Assembly (NCBI RefSeq): GCF_042453785.1
Contig: NC_091665.1
Coordinates: 28,506,501 to 28,570,500 of the forward strand
DNA: 64,000 nucleotides
Source: Malus domestica
Lineage: Eukaryota; Streptophyta; Magnoliopsida; Rosales; Rosaceae
Reading direction: 5' to 3'
Shown: piece after piece, positions 14,990-60,609 of the stretch
How positions within the stretch are numbered: the stretch's first letter is position 1
How the letters are laid out: each line of letters opens with the position of its first letter
The notes under the pieces: generated by a model
The model's database searches: none
What the model was told of the DNA's origin: nothing
Seen by the model: only the letters and a program-made list of their open reading frames with translations
Program-made: the position numbers and the translations under genes

Positions 14990-17744
14990 ATGGAATCCAA
15001 ACAAACAGCGGCAGCAGCTAGTACCACCCGATTGAGCCCCTTCAAGTACTCGAAACGGGTGCTCTTGAAAACCATCTTGGAGAGAAGGGATGGTGGTTTG
15101 GAGTTAATTGGTGAGAGGGTTGTGATTGGAGGGTGGGTGAAGTCCTCCAAGGAGGTCAGGAAAGAGCCTGTGCCACGTATAGATGGTGATCATGTGCCGG
15201 GTGAACCCGAACCAAGGTCAGACGTCAGCTGCGTCGAAATTCTTCAGTCTCGGATACCTTTTTTACGAACAATTGTCAAGGTTTTGGGAGGAGGAAGTGG
15301 TGGCAATTATCCTCTTAAGGACAAGTTGGAGGCGGCGCTTCATAAGCCTCCGCCACCTTCCACTGTCTTCTTGAAAGTTGGGGATGGTTCTTGCGTTGCA
15401 AGCCTTCAGGTAAATACGAGCACTACTATTTATACCATCTCAACTGATGATATTTTGTACCATATGCGACACACAAATTTAGAGATGGTACAAATAATTT
15501 TGTTACTTGGAGTAATTATCCAAGTTTTTAAATGAATTTTTATAGGCAATGATGAAAGTTGTATTTGATGTTTCTCAGGTTGTCGTTGAATCCTCCCTGG
15601 CTCCCCCAGGCCAGCTCTTGCATACTGGAACTTGCGTCATAGTGGAAGGCTTGCTGCAGAAACCTTCGGTACTACAGGGCAAACATGTTATCGAGCTGAA
15701 AGTGGATCATGTCCATCACATCGGAATAGTAGAATATAGCACGTATCCATTATCCAAAAAACGTGTGCCTCTAGATAAACTAAGGGAATTTTGCCACATT
15801 AGGCAGCGGACAACTACGGTAATTTGCATCTCCCATTGTTATTTGGTTGCGCTTCTTCAACTTTTTTATATCTGTTGTGAAATTAAGTGTTTGACATAAT
15901 GCAATTAAATTTTGATCATGACAAAGGGTGCATATGATTGATGTACACTCTGGTTTATTTCCTAACAGCTTACGTTTTTTACGTCTAGTGATTCCTTAAT
16001 ACGATATTACATATTCTACTTACTTATTTAGGTGCAATCTGTTATGCGAATCCGCAATGCCTTGGAGTTTGCAGCTCACACATTTTGTCAAAACAATGGT
16101 TTTCTTTCGGTGCAAGTACCCATTATAACAACTACAGACGGCAAAGGATCCAGCGAAAAGTTCCATGTCACTAGCCTTTTCACCGAAGCAGGTGAAAAGG
16201 AGGAGCCTAAGAAAGCTGTTGCTGAAATTGATGGTGTTAGTCTAGATGTTATCAAGGCTGCAGTAAAAGAGAAAAGTAACTTACTAGAGGAACTCAAGAG
16301 GACAGACAGCAATAAGGAAGCAGTAGCTGCTGCAATGCAGGACTTAAACAAAACAAATGAGTTAGCATCACAACTGGAAGCAAGAGAGAAATCAAAGCCG
16401 AAAACTTCTCAGAAGGTTGACAATGTTAAATCTTCTGAGGGTTACTTCTCTAGCCCAACTTATCTAACCGCTTCTGGCCGGATGCATCTGGAGAGCTACG
16501 CTTGTGCCCTTGGAAATGTGTACTCATTTGGGCCAAGATTTCGAGCAGAGAAAGGAGAGTCCCCAAAACATGCTGCAGAAATGTGGATGCTTGAAGTTGA
16601 ATTGGCCTTTTCAGAATTAGAGGTATAAGTTTATGTTTTTGGCATGAGTAGGTGTGTTATCTCTTTCTTTGTCACATCTAACAATTACCTTCTCGAGCTT
16701 TCAGGAAGCAATCAATTGTGCTGATGACTTTTTCAAGTTCCTCTGCAAATGGGTAGTGGAAAATTGTTCCGAAGATATGAAATTTGTTTCTCAACGAATC
16801 GACAAAACCAGAATTGATCGCCTTCAGTCGATCATTTCAAGTTCATTTGAAAGAGTTTCCTACAGTGAAGCATTAGATGCATTAAAGAAGGTTTTACTAT
16901 ATAACATTGTCCTTGAGTATAATTCTGACAATCATTTCTTTCTCCAGCTATATTATTTACGAAAGTTAATCGATTTTAAATTGCCAGGTTACAGACAAGA
17001 AAATTGAGACAAAAATTGAGTGGGGTGCTTCACTAACTGAAGCAGATCTAAGGTATGCAAATGAACATTGTGGTAATAACTAAATTAACCAGTATCTCAG
17101 TTGAGGTTCTTAACATTTTTTTTTTTCATGCATTACAGTTATTTGGCTGATGAGATATACAAGAAGCCTGTAATTATATACAATTATCCAAAAGAAACCA
17201 AGCCATTTTATGTCCGGTTGAACGATGATGGAAAAACAGTTGCAGCATTTGATATGGTTGTTCCAAAGGTAAGCTCATACTTGCACTTTAAGAAACCATG
17301 AGAAACATTTTATCAAAGCTTCCCCATCCCTACAAAAGTGCAAATTAATTGAAAACTACTGAAAAATGCTTATTTTTCTCAGGCTGGGAGATTATTTTCT
17401 GGTAGCCAAAATGAGGAGCGCATCAACATTCTAACTGCAAGGTACTCACTTGCATTAATAATCTTATATAATAGCCAAAAACTCAAAAGGTTGTTCTTTC
17501 TTTCTTGTGACCAATGAAACTAATAAATAAATCTCAAATTTTGGTGTTTCTTGTTTGCAGGATTAAGGAGTTGGGATTGGCAGCGCAGCAGTATGAATGG
17601 TACTTGGATCTTCGCCGGCATGGAACGGTTAAGCACTCGGGATTCAATCTTGAGTTTGATCATATCGTTCTGTTTGCTACTGGCCTGAATGATGTAAGGG
17701 ATGTCATCCCCTTTCCCAGAAGCCATGGCAAAGCCAACTACTAG
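14990..17744 (+). CDS. NS2: Asparaginyl-tRNA synthetase-like protein, NS2/SYNC2 type
   Basis: A class II aminoacyl-tRNA synthetase-like protein of 624 aa by my splicing. The exons are 14990-15409, 15579-15818, 16032-16622, 16705-16890, 16988-17052, 17139-17268, 17383-17441 and 17561-17744; all introns are GT-AG and phases agree. The N-terminal part (about 40-220) matches the OB-fold anticodon-binding domain. The catalytic core starts near 221 (VQSVMRIRNA). A WHEP-like helical insert occupies about 285-340, which marks the plant NS2 branch rather than the ordinary cytosolic enzyme. Motif 2 is present (GPRFRAEKGE, 387-396). Motif 3, normally G-x-G-x-G-x-E-R, reads GFNLEFDH (591-598), so the ATP-binding Arg is absent. 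The tail FPRSHGKANY is typical of the family. It could charge tRNA-Asn poorly or not at all. It is convergent with the DUF26 gene 336 bp downstream. Confidence 0.9.
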
Positions 17745-18080: not shown

Positions 18081-18881
18081 TTATGGATAAGCTATAGCCA
18101 TTACATTATTATCATCCACGGCATGCAGGGTATTGTTTGAATCAAGAGGGTAGAAAAATGGATAGAGCTCATATCTAACGTAGCAGCTACTATACAAAAC
18201 TCTACATCCCTTTCTGTTGTTACAAAAAGTTGGGAAATTTCCCACTGCAATAGCTAGGCACTGAGAGCAGCCTAGCTTAGACAAGTCCCTTGTGCACTGC
18301 ACCAAAGCATAGAGTGTCACAAATGGTGATAGCTTTGTCTCACCTTTCCCGAGCCCTCCACTCTCCGGCACAACAGCTTGTTTCCTAATCTTATCTGTCA
18401 GAGCTCCTAATTCCTCATTAAACTTCTCGGGGTCGGTCACATTGTAAACATTATAGTAAAATATACCATATGATGTGTCAACTTCCCCAATGAAGCTCTT
18501 GTCACTGTACCTCAAGAAGCAATAGTCATACCAAATTCGCGCGTCTGCTTGGTTCGGACAGCGCTGGCGGATTTGCTTCGCAGCGTCTTGGATGCAACTT
18601 GAGCAGTCTTTGGTGCCCACAACGTCACCTCTGCACTGAGCCAGGCCATAAACTTGGTCTTGCTTTTCCCCATAGGTGGTAGCCAAAAAGCCGGTTGAGG
18701 CAGTTTTCGGAACCAATTCAGCCAACAAGCTATCAATATTTTGTGATATTTGAGTGCCATTACTTATTTTAGTGCTATCTTTGTTGCAGAAATCTCCCAA
18801 AGGATCTTGAGATTCTGCACTGCAATTGCTTAAAACTAGCAAATAGAGAAGAATGTGGTATGAAAAGTTCATAATCTTCAT
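18081..18881 (-). CDS. Cysteine-rich repeat secretory protein (two DUF26/Gnk2 domains)
   Basis: An intronless gene for a 266-aa secreted protein of the plant CRRSP family, as in Arabidopsis CRRSP38 and ginkbilobin-2 relatives. Such proteins sit in the apoplast, and some bind mannose or have antifungal activity; no activity is shown here. I chose the start at 18881 (MKIMNFSYHILLYLLVLSNC) because it gives a clean signal peptide and a TATA-like TATATAAAC lies about 50 bp upstream; an in-frame ATG at 18983 would add 34 poorly hydrophobic residues. Domain 1 has its cysteine motif as C-x9-C-x2-C (CRGDVVGTKDCSSC), one residue longer than the usual C-x8-C-x2-C. Domain 2 has the standard spacing (CTRDLSKLGCSQC). 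There is no transmembrane or kinase part, so it is not a CRK receptor kinase. Confidence 0.88.
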   Translation of the reverse strand: MKIMNFSYHILLYLLVLSNCSAESQDPLGDFCNKDSTKISNGTQISQNIDSLLAELVPKTASTGFLATTYGEKQDQVYGLAQCRGDVVGTKDCSSCIQDAAKQIRQRCPNQADARIWYDYCFLRYSDKSFIGEVDTSYGIFYYNVYNVTDPEKFNEELGALTDKIRKQAVVPESGGLGKGETKLSPFVTLYALVQCTRDLSKLGCSQCLAIAVGNFPTFCNNRKGCRVLYSSCYVRYELYPFFYPLDSNNTLHAVDDNNVMAIAYP

Positions 18882-18930
18882 ATTTTGACTCACTTCAAAG
18901 CATAGCTGAAGATAGATTTTGTGAGGTGGT

Positions 18931-18940
18931 TGTTTATATG
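18931..18940 (-). promoter_or_regulatory. TATA box of the DUF26 gene
   Basis: CATATAAACA on the minus strand, about 50 bp before the chosen ATG. It supports the downstream start. Confidence 0.4.
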
Positions 18941-19761
18941 ACAAGCAGTGAAGTGGAGATGGAAGTGGAAGTGGGGAAGCCATTACAAATTAAGCACACA
19001 TTTTTGACTTTGTTGGCTCACTACATTATATCACCAAAGACTGGAAAAAGGAAAGTAAAGGCTTCCAGTAGGAGATTAGATTCCTTGGCTCCCCTCTTGT
19101 TCAAGTCAACAGATTCAAACCTAGAGTAAAATTGGCCATTCCAGAACGATTTGAGTTTGTAATATCTTAGGCTAGTGCTTCTTTTAATCATAACTACTTT
19201 AGTCTAAGCTTATCTCTCGTGCTTTCTATCACTAAAGCAGTAAGCGTTTCAGAAAAAAAAAACTCATTCAAGTAAGTTTGGCACACATATACATTCATAT
19301 AATCTAAGTTTGTGTTTAATGGCCTAATTTGGATTAGTTTATTAATATTTAAAAAACCATGATTTAGTACTGACTTGGTACTGATGTACTTTTATAAAAA
19401 GTGGGTATAAAAAAAACTGAACTAAAAAATGTGTTTGGTAAATACTTAAAAACAGCTTATTTTCATAGTTTTTGATGAAAAAAATCTGAAAACGTGAAGC
19501 AGCAAAAATAAGCTTATTCTCACAGCACAGCAGAAGCAATTTTTTTTCAAAACACAACAATACCAAATCAATCGGCATAAAAACCCTAGCATATACGGTA
19601 TCGGTCCTCACCGCATGATTGATAATATCTAGTGGGTTTTCACCCTCATCAATAAACATGGTTATATCATAACGCAATTGTTTTCGTGATTAGGATTTAT
19701 CTTAAATTAACCCACCTTTTTTATTGTTTTTTTCTTTGCATGCTTATCTAATGTAACTTTA
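18941..19761. other. Upstream DNA of the DUF26 gene
   Basis: AT-rich sequence with no further gene or defined element. Confidence 0.5.
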
Positions 19762-27598: not shown

Positions 27599-29004
27599 GG
27601 CTTATTATATTAACACCCCACAAATTGTTGAATAAACCCCACATACTTAATACATCCCACATTTACTTTTTCACTTAAAAATTATCTTAATACACCCCAC
27701 ATACTTTTCCATAATACCCTCATACCCCACATTCTCAATATACACCTTATATTTTGTACATACACCCCACATCTTCTATACACCCCACACTCAACCTCCA
27801 ATTTCCATTCATCTCCTTCTCCAACATTGACTCCTTTCAACATAAATGGACATCCGCATTTTTTAGTACCAATATTCCTGGGTTCTTTTTTCTTCTTATT
27901 ATTTGCATCAGAATTTTGGTCATTAATATCAGACTTCCTCAATATGGATCGATACTCACCATGTCTCTCACAAGCAAATGTTATTCGAGCTCTCTTCCTC
28001 CTTCGGTCAACCCCTCCCGCATTATACCTCTTAATGACAATAACCATATTATTCTTTTTTCCTTGTGCGCGAGTCCAATCAAGCAAATCATTTTTACTTT
28101 TGAACACCTGTACATACAAGATCATTGCCATTTTCCACTAACAAAATGTTTGTAGACATGCTAAGATTCCAACCCATATGTTATTCCCTATTATGAACCT
28201 AATGCACTGTGCTGCATAAAAGAATGCAAGAGTTTCCATGAAAGTCACAGATGCACATTCAATATACTAAAAATAGTTACCTTGTCAGTTTTAAATGCGT
28301 TTGTGTAATCAACAACGCTCGTTGTTGCAACCTCACTATCCCCTATAGAGGTATTGCCTTGTATGCTATCCTATTTAAATACACCAAAAATTATTATCAA
28401 ATCCTCATTTATTTACTAAGAATCATACACCTCAATTATTTGTTAAGAACCATACAACTCAATATCAATAGGCAGAGTGGTACATGCCAACAAACTTGTG
28501 ATGCATTTTTAGGTCCAACCTCCAAAATATTTTGTCGCTTTCCAATGTTCATTTCAAGGGACATAACCAAACCTTCTCTAAGAGGATCACTGGCTGGATT
28601 TGTAACCTGCAAAGAAGAAAATGAATAACCAATGGAAGAAAAAAAAAAGGAATATGAAATTAACCAAACCACCGATGAAACATAGTTGAGGCCATAAGGG
28701 ATATGAAAAAGGCATATGAAGTCTTACCTCATGTGAAGGTTCCGAATTTTTTTTCTCAATCAACATGTTTATAGTTTCATTGATTAGGGTTTTGTTCAAC
28801 AATGGAGGGTGGGAGGGTTTTGATAGTTGAGAAGATAAATAATAGGGTTTAGTGATTTGGGGTGTATTTTGAGATTTTTATTTCATTTTTTTAAAACCTA
28901 ATAAGGTCAAAATTGTCATTGCATAGTGGGGTAAATAAGTCATTTAATATTAAATTTTAATGTGAGGTGCATTCAACATTTTGTGGGGTGCTAATAAAAA
29001 AAGC
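27599..29004 (-). mobile_element. Mutator-like element (MULE) with 9-bp target duplication
   Basis: A 1406-bp element with inverted ends: GGCTTATTATATTAACACCCC at left, and a right end that reads GCTTTTTTTATTAGCACCCC on the minus strand. The flanks are ATTGTCCAA (27590-27598) and ATTGTCTAA (29005-29013), a 9-bp duplication with one change, as expected for Mutator-type insertion. CCCCACA motifs are scattered in the left end. It encodes only the N-terminal part of a FAR1-type protein, so it is non-autonomous. Confidence 0.75.
27781..28131 (-). pseudogene. FAR1/MudrA-like transposase N-terminal fragment
   Basis: About 117 codons resemble the FAR1 DNA-binding region found in FHY3/FAR1 proteins and in Jittery/MudrA-type transposases: an RARITFACERHGEY stretch, then KKCGCPFMLKG and EWKLEVECGV. 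The zinc-chelating Cys residues at 54, 92 and 94 are present. The protein should continue with the last His pair and a long DDE transposase domain. Instead the frame runs into the element's terminal repeat (27682-27780) after ECGV. It is a broken piece with no catalytic part. Confidence 0.65.
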
Positions 29005-32173: not shown

Positions 32174-32176
32174 CCA

Positions 32177-34127
32177 ATGGAGGAAGGGCTCGGAGGAGAG
32201 GAGTACTTGTTCAAGGTGGTGCTAATAGGCGACTCGGCGGTGGGCAAGTCCAACCTCCTCTCGCGGTTCGCCCGCAACGAGTTCGACCCCAACAACAAGG
32301 CCACAATCGGGGTCGAGTTTCTGACCCAAGAATTGGAAATCGACGGCAAAATGATCAAAGCCCAGATCTGGGACACCGCCGGCCAAGAGCGCTTCAGGGC
32401 CGTCACCTCTGCTTACTACAGAGGCGCTGTTGGCGCCCTGATTGTCTACGATATCAGTAGGAAGACCACCTTCGAGAGCGTCAAGCGCTGGCTCGATGAG
32501 CTTACCAGTAAGTTTTTGCATGATCCTTTTGTTAAAGATTGGTTTTTTCTGTTTGGTTGGTGAGAAAATGCGGGAAAATGAAGAATTTTTGTGGGTTTTG
32601 GATGATATCAAGTTTTGGTTAGCAGAGGGTGATTGTTTTAGCTGTATTTTTCTTTACCAGTAAGTTTTTGCCTACCCAGATTGATTTTTCCGTTTGGTTT
32701 GTGAGAAAATGTAGGAACAATGAAGAGATTATTTGGTTAATGAAATTAGGGGTGGTTCGGTATGAGATTCCAAATCGAAAATGGAATCTCAAATCGCAAA
32801 CCGAAAATTTTCAGGACGGGAATTTGAAGACTATTCCTAAACCAAAATTTTGGTATTCCTAATTTTTGGAATTCTTGAATTATTTTCGGTATTTTAGGAT
32901 GGTTTGGTATTCATAAATTTATACAAATTGAAATAGCAATCATTCGTACAAGTTAAATTAACATGTAACCCAAATAAAATAAGTAATAAAATCCAAAAGC
33001 AAAAAAATAAGTTACAAACCTAATATGTTAAAAAACTAACAACACAATTTTTTTATTCGTATCGGCAAATGTGGTGATAAATGGTTATGGTTACTACTTG
33101 TAGACCATACAAATTATATTGCTACTAGTAGTTAGCAACCGTTCGAATGTATAAGATATATATATAAAATGGAATCTTTAAGGGAATGGATATTCATTTT
33201 TTTATAAAAATAAGAATTAGTTGTAGGGTTCACACTACATCGACTATTAACGATTTGAACCGTTTATTTTTCAATTGTACCTCATAGATCATCTTTGCAA
33301 AATATTAGCTAAATTGGAAATGTTTAAGACATCTAATTGGGTTCAAAGAAATTAAAAAATACTTTGTTATATAAGAAATAATGAAATTTTATCTTGATAA
33401 TTAAATAGGTTTTGCTTATAGTTTTCCTTTCGTTTCCAATGGTATATGGTTTTGCTTATGTTTCTAAATTCCTCAAATTGTGCAATGTGCTTGACATGAT
33501 TTAGTGAAAGCGTAAGAAATTGATCGTGAATGCTTATTATATTCTGTTCCGCAGCCGAAGTTTCTTCCAGAAATATCCCGTCTAACAAATACGAACCTTA
33601 GTATTTTTGTGTGTTTACAAATAGCTGCAACTTAGAGTAATTCAGTGGCTAATACTTTGGATTCATTAAGATGCTTATAGAACTTGTTGGTATTACCCCT
33701 TAATTAGTTTGCAGGTTTTGTTTTAACTTTCTGATCATTTTGACATTCATATTCGTATTTCTAATTTATCGAGGGTCAGACAGTTAACGCTTAATTGAAT
33801 GATTACGCAGCTCATTGTGAAACAACGGTAGCACGGATGCTGGTAGGAAACAAGTGTGATTTGGAGGACATTAGGGCTGTGAGCTTGGAAGAAGGCAAAA
33901 ACCTTGCTGAGGAAGAAGGGCTATTCTTCATGGAGACTTCTGCACTGAATTCCACCAACGTTCAAACGGCTTTTGAGATAGTAATCCGGGAGATTTACAA
34001 CAACGTCAGCCGCAAAGTCCTAAATTCTGATTCCTACAAGGCCGAGTTGTCTGTGAACCGAGTAAGCCTGATGAAAAACGGGGCAGACTCGAAAAGCCGG
34101 ATGAATCTCTCTTGTTGCGGTGGATGA
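32177..34127 (+). CDS. RABA5: Ras-related small GTPase, RABA5 group
   Basis: A 215-aa Rab11-type GTPase of the plant RABA5 clade, acting in trafficking from the trans-Golgi/recycling endosome to the plasma membrane. Exons are 32177-32507 and 33811-34127, with a 1303-bp GT-AG intron that splits a Thr codon (LDELT|THCET). All G motifs are present: P-loop GDSAVGKS (18-25), switch I Thr in KATIG, WDTAGQE with Gln70, NKCD (124-127) and ETSA (152-155). The effector region [17 protein letters not shown] is RABA-like. The C-terminus is CCGG, a CCXX-type signal for double geranylgeranylation. The position next to the lipase and NS2 genes matches Arabidopsis RABA5b (At3g07410). The intron holds a degenerate hAT/MITE-like stretch beginning GGGGTGGTTCGGTA (32749). 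It is convergent with the lipase gene, 575 bp apart. Confidence 0.95.
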
Positions 34128-34702: not shown

Positions 34703-37700
34703 CTAAGGCTTCCTCAAGGCGGATGCTGCACCCATGACAACAGCCAAGACAATGCCAAGACCGGCTCCGAGGGAAGCACCCACAGCTGCAGAAGTAAGAG
34801 AATTTGACTTGGCTTGAGAATCACGTCCCATGGCGATTGCACGCTCTCTTGCCACTTCCACCAACAGCCTATCTCTTGCAAGTTCCTTCAAATCGAAAAA
34901 CATTTAGAAGACGTGAATAATTTTGGTAGATAAAATGGTATTTATACCACTACCACCCCCGTCGACAAGCATATATGACAGTGAAACAGTAAGCAACAAA
35001 TCTTGAGAGCAGAAAAACCCTATTGCAACATAAGATCTATGAAACATTTGTTCACCTGCAACGCAGCTTCCTCATGGCTCCGCAGTACATGATGGACTAC
35101 TTGACGAAGAGAGTTGACACCCTCAACTGGGAGAATAATTTCTTTCTTCTGGAAAGGCCGCTTAACAAAATTGATGGGAGCAAAAAATAAGCTTTGAGCA
35201 CCCATCCTTCCATCAGCATCTCCGGTGGTTGCACCCCATGACAAATTAGTGCTTGCAGCACTTGGCGTGACATATGGACAGGAATTGATAACGCCAGTGG
35301 TCCTTGGAGATGCTTGGTATGACTGGACAACAGCATCAATTGCTGCCTTCTGCTGATGAGCACTTACAGAAAATTTGTTTGTTACGGCAAGGACCCAAGG
35401 AATTCCCAAAGATTTCGCCTCATCCAGCAGAAGTGTAAGGGCTGGCTTTTGTTGCGATCCATTTGAGTGATTGAAGTGTGGTATTCTATGAGACAGGTTA
35501 TGAACAAGAACAATCAAGTCGGTCTTCCGATTAAGATCACGAATTCCTGTCCATAGTTCATCTCTGAAACGAGTAGCCTCCAAATTCAGCTCCTGCAACA
35601 AAAATTCGAGAAATATGACAATAAATCATGAGAAAGTATAAAATAATCCATGCCAACAGGGACATTCTTTATCATGGAAGGAGGAAATACCTGCAAATTT
35701 ACCCCTGCTGAATCACAGAAGCATACACCAAGGGAAATACCTTCTTGGGCGTCAGTTTCTGGAAGCAGATTCTCAATATTTGTAATATGGGTAATTCTGC
35801 CTTGGGATAGTATTGCCTTAAAAAGGGAAGTCTTTCCGGCTCCCTACATGGGCAATAAATCATGTGAGTAACTACATGAAATAAAATATATAAGACAAGT
35901 TTTTATTACCAAGAATTCAAGCATCAATACCTCAAGACCGAGTAACCGCACCCTACGAGTTCTCACATGCACCTCTTTAGAAACTGTGGTGAAGTCACTG
36001 GTACAAAATATGAAAAATTCACTTAACCCTTCAGGACGCATGGACTTTTCCTCATGAAATGGTCCTGAAGTGTGCTCCCTATTAAGATTAGCTGTGTTGG
36101 AATCAATAGCAGAATACACATGCATCATTGAATCTGCTTCCATCTGATGCTTTGGTGGCTGTTTCAATGGGGCTCCAATTAAGACTCGCATTTTTTGTAG
36201 TTCCAGATTTTCTCCATAATTTGAAGAATAAGCTGGGGTTGAAGGAAACGATTCTACTGTTGTTGAACACCTAATTGAAGATACAATGTTAAAATAATTG
36301 ACTGCATATAGAGTAGAATCATTGGTGAAGGTTGTAATACAGTTGCACAGAACAGTACCAGTTACCATTCACTTGGGCATGCACAAGTGTACAAAGATGC
36401 AGTCCATAACCAGTGATATCAACTTTTACAGGATCTCCGTTCTTCTCACCAGGTATGCCATTCCACCCAAGAGGAGCAACTGAAGTAGCTGTCCGAATAA
36501 CTGGAGACTCAACAATATGCCCAAGCTCCACAGTTCCTGCAACTGCAAGACCAAGCCACTGCTGTAGATGTGGAAACTGCTGTAGTTGTTCTATGGCTGA
36601 AAAAGGTGACGTATCATCTTTCATGCACAGGTCATAGATTCTGCAGAGGCAACAAGGTCCCGTCAAGTAAGAAATGGAAGAAAAGTTACAACAAGGTCCA
36701 AATGAAGACATGAGATTGCATTTTCCAACTACATACCGAATTCCAGGTACAAGGTGCAAGAAATTCAAATTAGATGCCCTAACTAGATTACACTGCACCT
36801 TGTCTCATTCCTGGATATAGATTTAGATCATCCGTTGTATTCATATGTTAAATGCTTGGTCACTGACATAGGTCCAAATGTGATTTGATATTTGTAAAGA
36901 TTATTTGTAAGGAAAACAGGATGAAAAGAAAGCAACAAATAAGATAAACCAAAAGGCAAACATAGTCCTTCAAAACAGTGTCACACCAATTTGGGAAGAA
37001 AGGATATTGCAGCAGGTCAACAAATAATCGGATAAACAGGAGATATATTTTTGTAAGGTAGAATCATTATTACCTCTGGAAGCGAAACCTATATGACTTC
37101 ATTGAATGTGATTGAAATCGTTCCCTCAGCTCCGCAATCACAGACCTGACCTGAAAATGCCTTTGCCAGAAGAAAGCAAATAAAATGAGATATTCCAGAC
37201 ACTATGACAACTAATAACTACGTGTAAACAAGAAAAAATGTCAACAAAAACCCTTAAACAGCAGAACTAATATTTTTTTTTTGAGAAGAAACAGCAGAAC
37301 TAATATAATCCAAAAGAAAAAAGAAAAAGAAATAACTGATGGTCAAGCAAAGGAAGTGCCTACCGATGTCAACTTTGAGTACTCTGCATCTGATAGTGAC
37401 TTCACTGACGAATTGTCCAAGAGATAAAGCTGGCACAACATAAAAGAATTTCAGACGAGTTCAGTTGACAACTGTAAACCAAGTTAAAAATTAGCATTTT
37501 AGGCATACAAAAGCACCAAGATAAAATCACAATGTCATCAGCAAAGAGAGCAAATAATGCCTTCATGCCGGAAACAAAAAAAATTAAATAAAGCATAACA
37601 AAAATCACTTTGAAGTACAAAGCAAGAAGGCATCAAATATGTTTCCTAACAGGTAAACCGAGACGGTATTTGCTAAAAATGTTTTATCCAAGCATATAGG

Positions 37701-40085
37701 TTGGGTAACGGCATAGAAGACAAATCTTGTTGACTAAATCAAGAATGCATAGCTACTGAGGACTGGCAATTAAGTACTTTAGCTTACAGCTCATTGCAGA
37801 CAAACGGAAAATGTACAAAATACCATAAGCAACTTAACAATTGCAACGCCAATCTAAGATTATAGAGATCTCAGGGAGTAGAAGACACAACAAGAAAAAT
37901 ACTGATAGCAACCATCACACATTCAATAGTTTGGACTACTTTACAAGCCCACATACATGCACCTAAGCTTGAAGAAGATTATACAAGGGCTTCCAGTTTG
38001 TAATATAATACCTCCCCAAATGGTACATATGAAGGTAAATAAGGGACTCTGCGCCATGTGCGGCTATCCCCATTTTTTGTGGAGCTTTTTTTAGCTAACT
38101 TCCCACTTGGTGCTACACCCGGTGGCTCTTTACCAGTTTCTGAGATAGGCTTAAGAGAGATACCATCAGAACCTTCTTGTATTTCAAGAGACTGTGGTTC
38201 TACCATGTCATCATCTACTACAGTTGTCGCAACAGAATCTGATTGAGAAGATGTCTCCACAGAATCAACTTTCTTTCCTCTGTATTTGTTAAATTGTCTT
38301 CTTATGCCTTCTAAGGGAACAAGCTTCGAAAGTCTCCACATAGAAGTCTGCACAGGTCCCAAACCCAGAACCAACTGTTCGCCACCATTCTCTTTGCGTT
38401 GTCCTACTACTTCCTCGCTTTTTAACATGGATATCCTGGTAGTTCCGGTTTCAGCAGGCACTGAAGGAGATTGTGCGTTATAATGATGAAAATAAGCAGG
38501 AGACAGGATGCGAGGCACCAGATCTTCAGGAATGCAGTAACTCTTGAAGTAATGCTGCCATCCCTCTCTACTAACATAACTACAAGAAAATAGATGATAA
38601 AAAACGGAGATTTAGTTACGCTGGAATAAGAGAATAGAGACATGAATAATCTTTGCTAACTATGAAATACCAGAAAAAGACAGTTGAAAAGGGGCAAGAA
38701 ACCTACTCTCTTAAAGCTGCATTCCCAACAGGGGGCTGGGAAAATGTGATGCATTTGACTTTAACATTTCCGTTCTCCTTTAATGAAGAAGAAGAAGAAG
38801 CGACCACCCTCAAAATAGCAAGGGTAGCTAATACTGCTACCTACATCGTCCAAAGAGCGAAGATAGTATGAGTTCGAACCAATAACAAGCAAAGCGATCA
38901 CTAACAAGTAAACTGTCAAGCAAAACAGCTAACGGACTTACTGCTCCACCAAGTGAGTGACCACATAACACAAGGTTCCGTTTTTTCTTTTGAGCAAGCC
39001 TGTACAACTCCAACGCAGGTATCCCTTTAGCACGAGCCAAGAACCCCTAAAGATAACATTTTGAAAAGATAGCATGTTAGAAAATCATATTGGCGCATTA
39101 CACAAGAGCGCGTGATTTCGTGGGTGGGACTGCAATGATACCCGATGTGCGGCAGGTTTAGCTTTATTTGCTTTTGATTCAAGAGGATTCCACAAATTTT
39201 CTCCATTTCCCTTTCCTTTTTCAGGTGGATTACATTTAGTAGTTTCAGTCCCATTAGTATCCTCCACTACATCCTCATGAAATATAGCACCTTGAAATAT
39301 GTTTGCATCCGCCATCACATCCCTTCGCCAAATAACAAACAAACAAATAAACAATAATTATCGACGTAACAAATAGAAATTCTGGATGAATTAATCGAAT
39401 TCAAATGATTCTTACTTGTACTGCTTGGTTCCAATGAAAGAAGCAAACAATGTATCACCGGATTCCGCCAACAAATAACTGCATACACCCAAACGCAAAA
39501 CAGCTAAAACAATCGACCCCAAGAAGCAAACTTTCAAATCAAACAATCCAAGCAACGAAAAAAATCAAACACCTGTGAGGAACGTGATCCGAAGAAGGTT
39601 GAACACGCTCGAGAGAAACAATTTGTCCTCCGAAGTCGGACTTAAACTTATTCACAGCCCAAACCAAGTCCGAAGCAGGTCTCTATCCGAAGCATTGCAT
39701 CAAAACATTAAGATTGCACACAAGGTGTTTGAATCTTTGATCAAATGCGAGAGAGAGGGAGAGAGAGGGAGAGAGAGAGAGAGAGAGAGATTGAAAGCTT
39801 TTCACTTTTTTCACTGACCTTGTAAACGCACTCGGAGAGAACCATGCAGCAGAGGATGTCCTGGAGGTCGGAGACGGAGTCGGCCTTGACGGCGGCGCAG
39901 AGATCGTGGAGCTGCTTGCGGCGGCGCTCGTACTCCTGGTGGATCCTGCGGCGGTGCTCACGGCCGCCCTCCTTGCCGAGCCAGGGCCACTTCATCCTCC
40001 ACTGCAGAGGGCCCCAGGAGACCTTGAGGAGCTTGGCTCGCTGCTCCTTGATCCATGCCTCCACTCTGCTTTGTATCGACTCCAT
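34703..40085 (-). CDS. Class 3 lipase-like protein with C-terminal P-loop GTPase-like domain
   Basis: A 1021-aa protein matching the At3g07400 family. Fourteen exons, all GT-AG and phase-consistent: 39819-40085, 39573-39682, 39416-39478, 39142-39322, 38942-39046, 38707-38840, 38012-38579, 37364-37429, 37074-37150, 36359-36640, 35931-36270, 35691-35843, 35056-35592, 34703-34885. The lipase part has the nucleophile elbow GHSLGG (Ser238), directly followed by an intron, and a likely catalytic Asp306 in PEDLVPRIL. About residues 320-460 are low in complexity. A Walker A motif GLEGAGKT (729-736) spans an intron, and a DxxG-type DSAG (775-778) follows. TNKF (853-856) stands where G4 [NT]KxD is expected. 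A hydrophobic Gly/Ala-rich segment ends the protein, suggesting a membrane anchor. Substrate and nucleotide are unknown; lipase activity is inferred from motifs only. Confidence 0.9.
39750..39790 (-). repeat. (GA)n tract in lipase intron 1
   Basis: GA/GGGA simple repeat within the first intron, close to its 5' splice site on the minus strand. Confidence 0.9.
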
Positions 40086-48465: not shown

Positions 48466-50529
48466 TCAGCCTTGTCCGTTGTTCAATCCATCATACGGCT
48501 TGGTGGCCTTTCTTGACTTTCTCTTCAAGACTACAATCCAAGTGATTGCTTCCAATAACAATGCAAGTGCACCCAACGTAATAATCACAATTATGTAAGT
48601 AGATCTCCAATGCTTAGCAGGATTTAGTATGTCTAAGCCCTTAAACACATTTATAATGCCGAGGACAAGAATCGTGTATCCGAGAGTGTGGTGGTAGATG
48701 TTCCAGTAGAACCTGAACTTGTGCTCCTTCTTTGGCCTCAAGAACAATGCGAATATCTGTAAGTTCAGAGAAGGAAATTCCAATTAGATGAAAACAGTCC
48801 AAAATTAAGTACCACAAACATATTAATCAGCCTTGATTCGACAAAATGCTGCCTTCAGCAGCTGTGAACACAGACTAATCTATGCGAAATTGAGTTAAGA
48901 TTGCATCAGAAAACCGAGATGTTCTAAATCCAAATCTTCAATGGTAGTTTACATACATAACATGGATTCATGGAAGGTAGGGGAATGCATAAAATCGAAA
49001 AATGCCAGTTACCCTTTATCACTTAGCACTTAAACAGCATTATAAATTTGTAAACTAAGTTGTATGAACTACATTAAGTTAGTGTAGGTAAAATTAGAAT
49101 GGAATTTGCAGACATAGGCGCAACCACATTGGCAAGAGTAGATGTACTCCCCTACATATCAGAGTTCCGATCTCCTTCTCGCAGTTTATATTAGTTTAGA
49201 GTAACATATCGCTTGTATCAGAAGAAAACAAAGAATGGATCTTACCTGCAGAGTTGCTAAGGCAAACAGGACAATTCCAATGTTGCGATGATTAGTGTAA
49301 ACCACCCCTTTGGACTCACTTCCGAGCTTAATTCCGGTAGCCCAGCCGGCGACACCAATGGCATAACCAGATACCTGGCAGAATATATGAAGATAAAACC
49401 AAGCTGGATCCGCAGACGGAAAAGACCTCAAGTATCTTGCTACGATGATTCCAATTGGAAACATCAATCCCCAACTCACAGCATTCAAAATTCCATGTAT
49501 CTGAATCACACAAAAACACAAAAAAGGATTTAACTTTATCAACTTTGATCAAAACCCATCTCAAATCTAGCTCAGATTTCTACAACTTGCCAAAATTAAA
49601 GCCAAATCTTCATTAGAGCACAATTTCCCTTTACTCAAAGTTTCAAGCTTTATGCACTCCAAATAAAGCAACTTTCTTTTCCTTCTAAAAATTTACAACT
49701 TATTTTTACCGTTTGCGATTCAAATGGTTAAGAGAGTTTACTCTACGCGTGAGTGATTAACAACGTTTAACAATATCTACGAGTGGTTAAGAGTGTTTAT
49801 CCTGCAAGTAAAATCCCCACTCTAAATCATCTTCTTATTAAAGTTTGTATAAAAATAGTAACAAAAGAATCCCAAAACATTAAAATGGAAATTTAGAGAG
49901 ATTCAACTCACATTTCTCTTCTTCATCTTGGACCCCCCGCTAGCGGTGGTGGTGGTGGTGCCGCCGGTCAAGCTCAGTGTCCCTTTCGAGTTAAGATTCG
50001 GCGTCAGGAAGTCGTGTTTAGCCGGAAACCCATCGGAAACAGATGGCCCCACCTGCCAAACCTGGTTCACCGTCTCCTTCTCCACCTTCAACTTCGCAAA
50101 CAGCCTAAAAACGCCGCCGGACGACTCGGCCGCAGTGTCCCACACGTCGAACGACAGCTTCGACTCAAGAATATCCTTGTACGAGCTGATGTTGAAGGTT
50201 TTAACGGCCATTGAGCCGTCGGCCTTCTTGTAGGCGAGGAGGGTCTGGGACCCAGGCATCCCGGTGGACGTCGGGTTGATGGCCCAGGCGATCCAGCCGT
50301 CGGATTTGGAGGGTGGCGAGATGAAGGCGATAGAGAGAGTGGAGTTGGCGGGGTCGTAGGTCCAGTGGAGGAAGGAGCTGAGGACGGGGAGGTCGGCGCA
50401 TTTCGAGTAGAGCTTGTTGTTGGCGAAGGTTTGGGAGGTGCAGGTGAGGGAAAGCGCGGGTGAGATAAGCAAAAGGAGGGTGAGCGGTAGAAATATTGAG
50501 AGAGAAGAGGAGGAGGAAGAAGAAGCCAT
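48466..50529 (-). CDS. Cytochrome b561 and DOMON domain-containing protein
   Basis: A 387-aa CYBDOM protein, a plasma-membrane b-type cytochrome thought to move electrons between cytosolic ascorbate and apoplastic acceptors. Exons: 49912-50529, 49246-49500, 48466-48756 (GT-AG, phase 0 joins). A signal peptide fills about residues 1-28, then the DOMON domain follows, with likely haem ligands Met91 (MPGSQ) and His172 (PAKHDF). Exons 2 and 3 encode the b561 core. His208 (IHGILN), His244 (FYLH), His277 (NHRNIG) and His313/314 (YHHTLGY) sit at the family's four haem-binding positions in the transmembrane helices. The tail is basic ([10 protein letters not shown]), consistent with a cytosolic end. 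A TATA box lies about 60 bp before the ATG (CTATAAATTC on the minus strand). The AIR12-like gene 9.4 kb away on the same strand is a paralogue of the first exon. Confidence 0.93.
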
Positions 50530-59880: not shown

Positions 59881-60609
59881 TTAGAAAGCAATGAGAGCTC
59901 CAAGAACCAAAAGCGAAATGGAAAACAAACCCATGTTTCCTCCACTCCCAGTCCTCAAAGCCCCACTACCGCCGCCAGTGGTGTTAGTGGTGGAGCCACC
60001 GCCCGTGGTGGTGTTGGTAGTGGAATTAGCTACCAAGGGCAAGGTCTCATAGGACCTGAGATTGGCGGGGGAGAAGTCATGCTTTTCAGGGAAACCGGTG
60101 GTGGTGTTGACTCCGGGGCCCACCTGCCAGACGTGGTTGACGGACACGGCGTCTTTTTTGACCTTGACGGTGGCGAAGATCATGAAGGTGCCGCTGGAGA
60201 ACTCGGCGCTGACGTCCCAGACGTCGAACGAGAGCTTTCCGGGAATGATGGAGGCGTAGGAGCTGATGTTGTAGGTTGTGACGGTCGGGGTGCCGTTAGC
60301 AGTTAGGTGGGCCAGTAGGGCCTGGGACCCGGCCATTCTTTCGGCTGTGGGGTTGATGGCCCAGGCGACCCAGCCGTCGGTCTTGGCGGGGGCGGCGACG
60401 AAGGCAATGGAGAGGGAGGAGTTGGAGCGGTCGTACGTCCAGTGGAGGTAGGAGCTGAGGACGGGGAGGTCGGAGCAGTTGGAGTATAACTTGTTTTTGA
60501 ATGTCTGTGAGTTGCAGGTGGCTGCTTGTACGGCCGGCGAGATTAGCAGAGCCAATAGGAGGGAAATGCATGAAATCTGGAGGAGAGAGAGAGGGAGAGA
60601 GGAAGCCAT
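59881..60609 (-). CDS. AIR12: AIR12-like DOMON protein, predicted GPI-anchored
   Basis: An intronless gene for a 242-aa protein of the auxin-induced-in-root-cultures-12 family, an extracellular b-type cytochrome on the outer face of the plasma membrane. A signal peptide covers about 1-29 (ending SPAVQA). The DOMON domain has likely haem ligands Met92 (RMAGSQ) and His177 (PEKHDF), as described for AIR12. A low-complexity Thr/Asn/Gly linker (about 195-222) follows, and the protein ends in a hydrophobic tail, LFSISLLVLGALIAF, without a basic end, which is a GPI-attachment pattern. It lacks the b561 core. A TATA box (ATATAAATC, minus strand) lies about 95 bp upstream, and GA-rich leader sequence sits just before the ATG. 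It corresponds to Arabidopsis At3g07390 by family and by position. Confidence 0.93.
   Translation of the reverse strand: MASSLPLSLLQISCISLLLALLISPAVQAATCNSQTFKNKLYSNCSDLPVLSSYLHWTYDRSNSSLSIAFVAAPAKTDGWVAWAINPTAERMAGSQALLAHLTANGTPTVTTYNISSYASIIPGKLSFDVWDVSAEFSSGTFMIFATVKVKKDAVSVNHVWQVGPGVNTTTGFPEKHDFSPANLRSYETLPLVANSTTNTTTGGGSTTNTTGGGSGALRTGSGGNMGLFSISLLVLGALIAF

Follow-up and report, generated by a model that had tools for sequence, protein, structure and literature searches.

The EDS1 family comprises lipase-like immune regulators of plants, in which the EDS1-type lipase fold is central to immunity and the immune role is not known to need lipase activity; Toc34 and GIMAP are membrane-anchored GTPases not known to have a lipase half. 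A gene that joins a lipase domain to a GTPase-like domain lies in a 64,000-nucleotide stretch of Malus domestica DNA (RefSeq assembly GCF_042453785.1, contig NC_091665.1, positions 28,506,501 to 28,570,500; the whole stretch is referred to as the window), which is situated on contig 5 of the 651-Mb, 19-contig genome used for the own-genome searches. When spliced from the sequence, it forms a single minus-strand gene extending from the ATG at window position 40085 to the TAG at 34703, with 14 exons, 13 introns that are all of the GT-AG type (13/13) and a frame that continues without an internal stop over a 1021-aa product. The combination of the two domains in one plant protein is real and unusual. 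A prediction made earlier from the letters of this DNA (the original prediction) had placed a GHSLGG elbow, a GLEGAGKT P-loop and a DSAG motif in one protein; splicing bore this out and reproduced its coordinates, protein length and residue numbers. Its larger claim, that a lipase, a P-loop GTPase-like domain and a hydrophobic C-terminus are encoded by one gene, is supported, with the lipase part secure and the GTPase part on weaker evidence.

A lipase domain and a GTPase-like domain in one protein

The Pfam model Lipase_3 (PF01764) matches residues 196-311 of the spliced protein (E = 3.6e-16; 59.8 bits against a cut-off of 22), and assignment of this half to a class 3 lipase-like hydrolase fold can be regarded as secure at the level of sequence, its acyl hydrolase activity being putative. 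An exon-wise Lipase_3 scan of the own genome returned 70 matches that do not include the present gene, because its domain is split over exons. Among the 33 distinct PDB sequences matched by the lipase half at E<=1, the best were EDS1 (5e-11) and PAD4 (4.3e-10), with fungal lipases weaker (1e-4 and beyond). The exon-wise own-genome search with the same query gave 32 matches at E<=1, the first eight of which represent the gene itself and a second copy on contig 10 (C10). The best match outside the two copies (C6:30927640, E = 3.2e-9, 39%) belongs to a gene with an EDS1_EP domain and is followed by genes on C14, C15, C9 and C2; individual relatives in this genome presumably correspond to EDS1, PAD4 and SAG101. 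EDS1_EP was found downstream of each of the three of these genes that were tested (L024, L030 and L033), in open frames.

In a MAFFT alignment with three EDS1-family genes from the same genome, Ser238 of the nucleophile elbow (GHSLGG, aa 236-241) and D306 fall in the Ser and Asp columns of the relatives, so that both the GxSxG elbow and the catalytic Asp of a class 3 lipase are present, and YVPFGELY aligns with YKPFGTYI, YCPFGSYL and YKPFGTFL. Since the S238, D306 and PFG columns match those of the EDS1-family genes, the lipase fold probably runs to about residue 515. The stretch from the Asp region to PFG, some 160 residues, is longer than in the three relatives as judged by eye on the alignment. 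The only His between residues 319 and 548 is H513, a candidate catalytic residue. When the final portion of the lipase half was searched against the PDB in order to place the His, no lipase appeared among 8 sequences at E<=10, and a match to eIF3c (0.14) at the end of this half was rejected as chance.

The C-terminal half carries GLEGAGKT (G1, aa 729-736, with Lys735), DSAG (G3, aa 775-778) and TNKF (G4-like, aa 853-856), to which can be added two points absent from the original prediction, namely a G5-like PSA (aa 892-894) and an exon junction (intron 11) that cuts the P-loop between GLE and GAGKT. G1 and G3 fit the forms GxxxxGK[ST] and DxxG of TRAFAC GTPases. Relative to the P-loop Lys, DSAG preceded by hydrophobic residues lies at K+40, a similarly preceded TNKFS has its Asn at K+119 and PSA has its Ser at K+158; the G1, G3, G4-like and G5-like motifs follow the same order as in the adjacent Rab gene. 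With the last 304 residues as query, the Pfam matches at E<=1 were MMR_HSR1 (0.002, or 0.014 within the whole protein; 18.6 bits on the 304 residues against a cut-off of 21.9), ABC_tran (0.0082), AAA_21 (0.04) and Arf (0.15). All eight PDB sequences at E<=10 were Arl3 (0.02-0.083), matched over ∼48 residues around the P-loop. In NCBIfam, small_GTP (0.1; 12.4 bits against a cut-off of 42.5) ranks behind MotP (0.067); MotP, like phrog_594 (0.21), was rejected as chance. Because the models fall below their cut-offs, the assignment to a GTPase-like class leans mainly on the motifs and is the less firmly evidenced of the two.

The frequency with which such motifs arise was gauged by composition-keeping shuffles, using patterns chosen after sight of the sequence, so that the counts are guides and not strict probabilities. 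A P-loop alone appeared in 5,141 of 60,000 whole-protein shuffles and, being that frequent, means little. The ordered series of P-loop, hydrophobic-DxxG and hydrophobic-[NT]K at plausible spacings turned up 46 times in 60,000 whole-protein shuffles and 29 times in 200,000 made from the last 304 residues, and GHS[LFMY]GG 9 times in 60,000 whole-protein shuffles. In the own genome, every match of the last 304 residues at E<=1 (6/6) came from the two copies, as did every match of residues 524-731 (5/5). Prokaryote and viral scans with exon 13 found relatives in 0/53 and 0/5 pattern-matching stretches, respectively, although a single-protein query of this kind finds close relatives only.

Between the two halves, a 241-aa query covering the middle region (exon 8 to just before the P-loop) met only fn2 in Pfam, at 0.15, which was rejected as chance. 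At the other end, hydropathy averaged over 19 residues is highest for 994-1012 (Kyte-Doolittle mean 2.17), 9 residues from the terminus; the next segment, 239-257 (2.04), falls in the lipase core. The hydrophobic tail starts at about residue 992 and has Gly/Ala at repeated four-residue spacings, a pattern that may be likened to tail-anchored or glycine-zipper segments. Of the C-terminal anchor originally predicted, the hydrophobic Gly/Ala-rich segment is thus present, and its role in holding the protein in a membrane is an inference.

The coding sequence opens with a basic, Trp-containing N-terminal region (aa 1-89, described by eye) in exon 1 (39819..40085), and the lipase half begins in exon 2 (39573..39682). 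Exon 3 (39416..39478) carries FIGTKQ at residue 140, presumably where class 3 lipases have their RGT strand, a placement made by eye. Exon 4 (39142..39322) is followed by exon 5 (38942..39046) with the nucleophile elbow, exon 6 (38707..38840) with lipase core, and exon 7 (38012..38579) with the candidate catalytic Asp D306 in PEDLVPRI, a long insert and, at aa 473-475, the PFG motif. Exon 8 (37364..37429) precedes exon 9 (37074..37150), where the lipase half ends and where the candidate catalytic His, H513, lies in QSHSMKSY, an assignment that the alignment did not confirm. The middle region occupies exon 10 (36359..36640), which has no family match above cut-off, and continues into exon 11 (35931..36270), which includes a probable first beta strand and ends in LLGLE, the opening part of the P-loop. 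GAGKT (K735) and DSAG (D775) are encoded by exon 12 (35691..35843), the remaining G-like domain, with VTNKFS and PSA, by exon 13 (35056..35592), and the Gly/Ala-rich hydrophobic segment (about aa 992-1017) and stop by exon 14 (34703..34885).

The second copy on contig 10

All 14 exons have counterparts, in the same order, on the minus strand at C10:26299000-26308500 (L015). Its exon 7 is 38 bases longer, with a short tandem duplication near the end, and, given the exon end chosen, its exon 11 has 31 extra bases, reflecting an in-frame duplication and a two-base shortfall near the end. A codon comparison made exon by exon (1008 codons) gave an overall Ka/Ks of 0.25 with a Ks of 0.16. The ratio was 0.25 for exons 1-9 (516 codons) and 0.28 for exons 11-14 (399 codons); for smaller portions it was 0.12 (exons 8-10), 0.20 (exon 13, in which the copies are 94% identical) and 0.37 (exon 12, 51 codons). 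As far as one close comparison can indicate, purifying selection seems to have acted with similar strength on both halves over most of the period after the duplication.

GHSLGG, PEDLVPRI, QSHSMKSY, GAGKT, DSAG, TNKF and PSA are identical in the two copies, and a single substitution (A to S) separates the two tails; the presence of the G1 Glu before the exon-11 junction in the C10 copy depends on the exon end chosen. Conservation of Ser238 and Lys735 is thus seen in the C10 copy, a copy so close that the comparison does not extend to deep conservation.

Gene neighbourhood and relation to At3g07400

The window contains, in order, a tRNA synthetase of class II (D, K and N group; tRNA-synt_2, at 16032), a Rab gene, the lipase gene and two DUF568 genes (Pfam, at 49906 and 59884). 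The Rab gene (32174-34127, plus strand), RABA5-like by its neighbourhood, lies tail to tail with the lipase gene, their coding ends being about 575 bases apart. The DUF568 (AIR12-like) open frames (49903-50529 and 59881-60609, minus strand) are about 9 kb apart and probably constitute a tandem pair. In Arabidopsis, the cited papers describe At3g07390 as AIR12 (PMC7003101) and a DUF568 member (PMC10500787), At3g07400 as a 'lipase class 3 family protein' paired with sweet orange orange1.1g001709m (PMC4634795), At3g07410 as RABA5b (PMC7003101, PMC6471938) and At3g07420 as the cytosolic AsnRS SYNC2 (PMC7564348). All four consecutively numbered genes, At3g07390-07420, thus have a counterpart in the window in the same order, with other genes interspersed, Arabidopsis adjacency being taken from the locus numbers. 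Because these four neighbouring genes match in order, the apple gene is very probably the At3g07400 orthologue, an assignment based on shared neighbourhood. The At3g07400 protein is presumably about 1003 aa long.

Two further open frames were observed on the minus strand of this region: one of 300 aa with a Stress-antifung match (1.1e-38) between the tRNA synthetase and Rab genes (18081-18983), and one of 149 aa (27682-28131) that resembles by eye a fragment of a FAR1/MULE-type DNA-binding protein and has no Pfam match at 0.001.

The original prediction had described the family as little studied, which agrees with the literature searched. At3g07400-like genes are named in Arabidopsis, sweet orange and sesame, and in the passages that name it the gene is a table entry (PMC4634795, PMC4143287, PMC9858106); At3g07400 is also named in PMC4041134 and PMC4778066. 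A literature search for the pairing of a lipase with a P-loop domain found no related paper, with most subscription papers lying outside the search, so that such a study may exist. The clone name F21O3.11, presumably that of the Arabidopsis gene, had no match in the literature searched. Cataloguing the gene as a 'lipase class 3 family protein' conceals half of its product.

Possible functions and comparison with described systems

It is tentatively proposed, with a confidence that stops somewhat short of even, that the protein is enzymatically active and subject to regulation: a class 3 hydrolase of EDS1-like type, tethered to a membrane and joined to a degenerate G domain. In one polypeptide, a class 3 (EDS1-like) alpha/beta-hydrolase domain would be followed by the middle region, then by a P-loop domain of degenerate GTPase-like character, and last by a tail anchor at the C-terminus. 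The tail would hold the protein in a membrane with its bulk in the cytosol, the P-loop domain would bind a nucleotide, and either this binding or the pairing of the domains would control how the hydrolase domain reaches the acyl lipids of the membrane. If the P-loop half does control the hydrolase half, the protein would be a lipid hydrolase with a built-in switch, and the EDS1-type lipase fold, known from plant immunity, would be linked to nucleotide control. A broader version, less likely than not, would place these proteins as sisters to the EDS1-type lipase-like line, with a GTPase-like switch and membrane anchor where the latter has EP, yielding a membrane-tethered acyl hydrolase or lipid sensor that a nucleotide both opens and closes and that is conserved in flowering plants.

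Several observations weigh against such a regulated enzyme. Nucleotide gating of lipid hydrolysis is putative. No GTPase or other NTPase model scored above its cut-off on the P-loop half in Pfam or NCBIfam, ABC_tran closely trails MMR_HSR1, and exon 13 of the C10 copy alone had no Pfam match at 0.1. The [NT]KxD form of G4 is replaced by NKFS (aa 854-857), the weak G4 having been rightly called in the original prediction; the base-reading Asp is missing, and GTP specificity is consequently doubtful. In the MAFFT alignment of the lipase half, H513 stands opposite K, P and C and is offset by a few columns from the EHL/DHL of two relatives. The C10 copy, as read, loses its frame downstream of the lipase core and regains it only in exon 11; this copy may be decaying or a young pseudogene, or may reflect other splicing or an assembly error, and because of its frame-breaking differences one of the two copies may be dispensable.

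It is quite possible that both domains serve as scaffolds, the lipase half acting as an EDS1-like module for interactions, with no catalysis of its own, and the P-loop half as a pseudo-GTPase that does no more than hold its fold or dimerise, which would still be unusual as a scaffold. The kinship with EDS1-family proteins, the uncertain catalytic His and the missing G4 Asp would all suit such a protein; the triad Ser and Asp are nevertheless in place, and the second copy preserves GHSLGG, GAGKT and DSAG although K735 would be dispensable for a pure scaffold, an argument weakened by the closeness of the copies. The absence of the G4 Asp, together with ABC_tran and AAA_21 as the matches next after MMR_HSR1, would also accord with a different class of P-loop NTPase, one that uses ATP or is unspecific for the base and that powers the remodelling of membranes or the assembly of complexes, the lipase being its effector. 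This reading is improbable; the placement of DSAG, NK and PSA fits a G domain. That two neighbouring genes, or a faulty gene model, have been wrongly joined is most improbable, even though the model rests on genomic sequence and the C10 copy is out of frame between the two halves, from the close of exon 7 to exon 11. Separate genes were rejected because the 14 exons are in frame with GT-AG introns and recur in identical order in the second copy; in addition, exon 11 bridges the middle region and the P-loop strand.

The hydrolase with a degenerate G domain, as tentatively favoured here, shares features with several described systems. With At3g07400 it has in common the neighbours AIR12/DUF568, RABA5b and AsnRS SYNC2. 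It resembles TRAFAC-type GTPases (MMR_HSR1, Arf/Arl) in the ordered G1, G3, partial G4 and G5-like motifs and in weak profile and PDB matches, but scores below the curated cut-offs, has NKFS for NKxD and places the domain behind a lipase. Like Toc34 and GIMAP, it has a G-like domain followed by a C-terminal hydrophobic segment, whereas no AIG1-family match was found in this protein at E<=1 (Pfam) and a lipase half is present. The EDS1 family provides its best PDB matches for the lipase half and its best own-genome matches outside the two copies, and shares the PFG motif and the Ser and Asp columns. The EP domain (EDS1_EP, PF18117), carried by 3/3 tested relatives, is absent from this protein at E<=1 (Pfam), and membership of the EDS1 family proper was rejected on that account. 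The apple protein differs further from the family in its longer Asp-to-PFG stretch, and has a P-loop domain and a hydrophobic tail in the place taken by the EP domain in its relatives.

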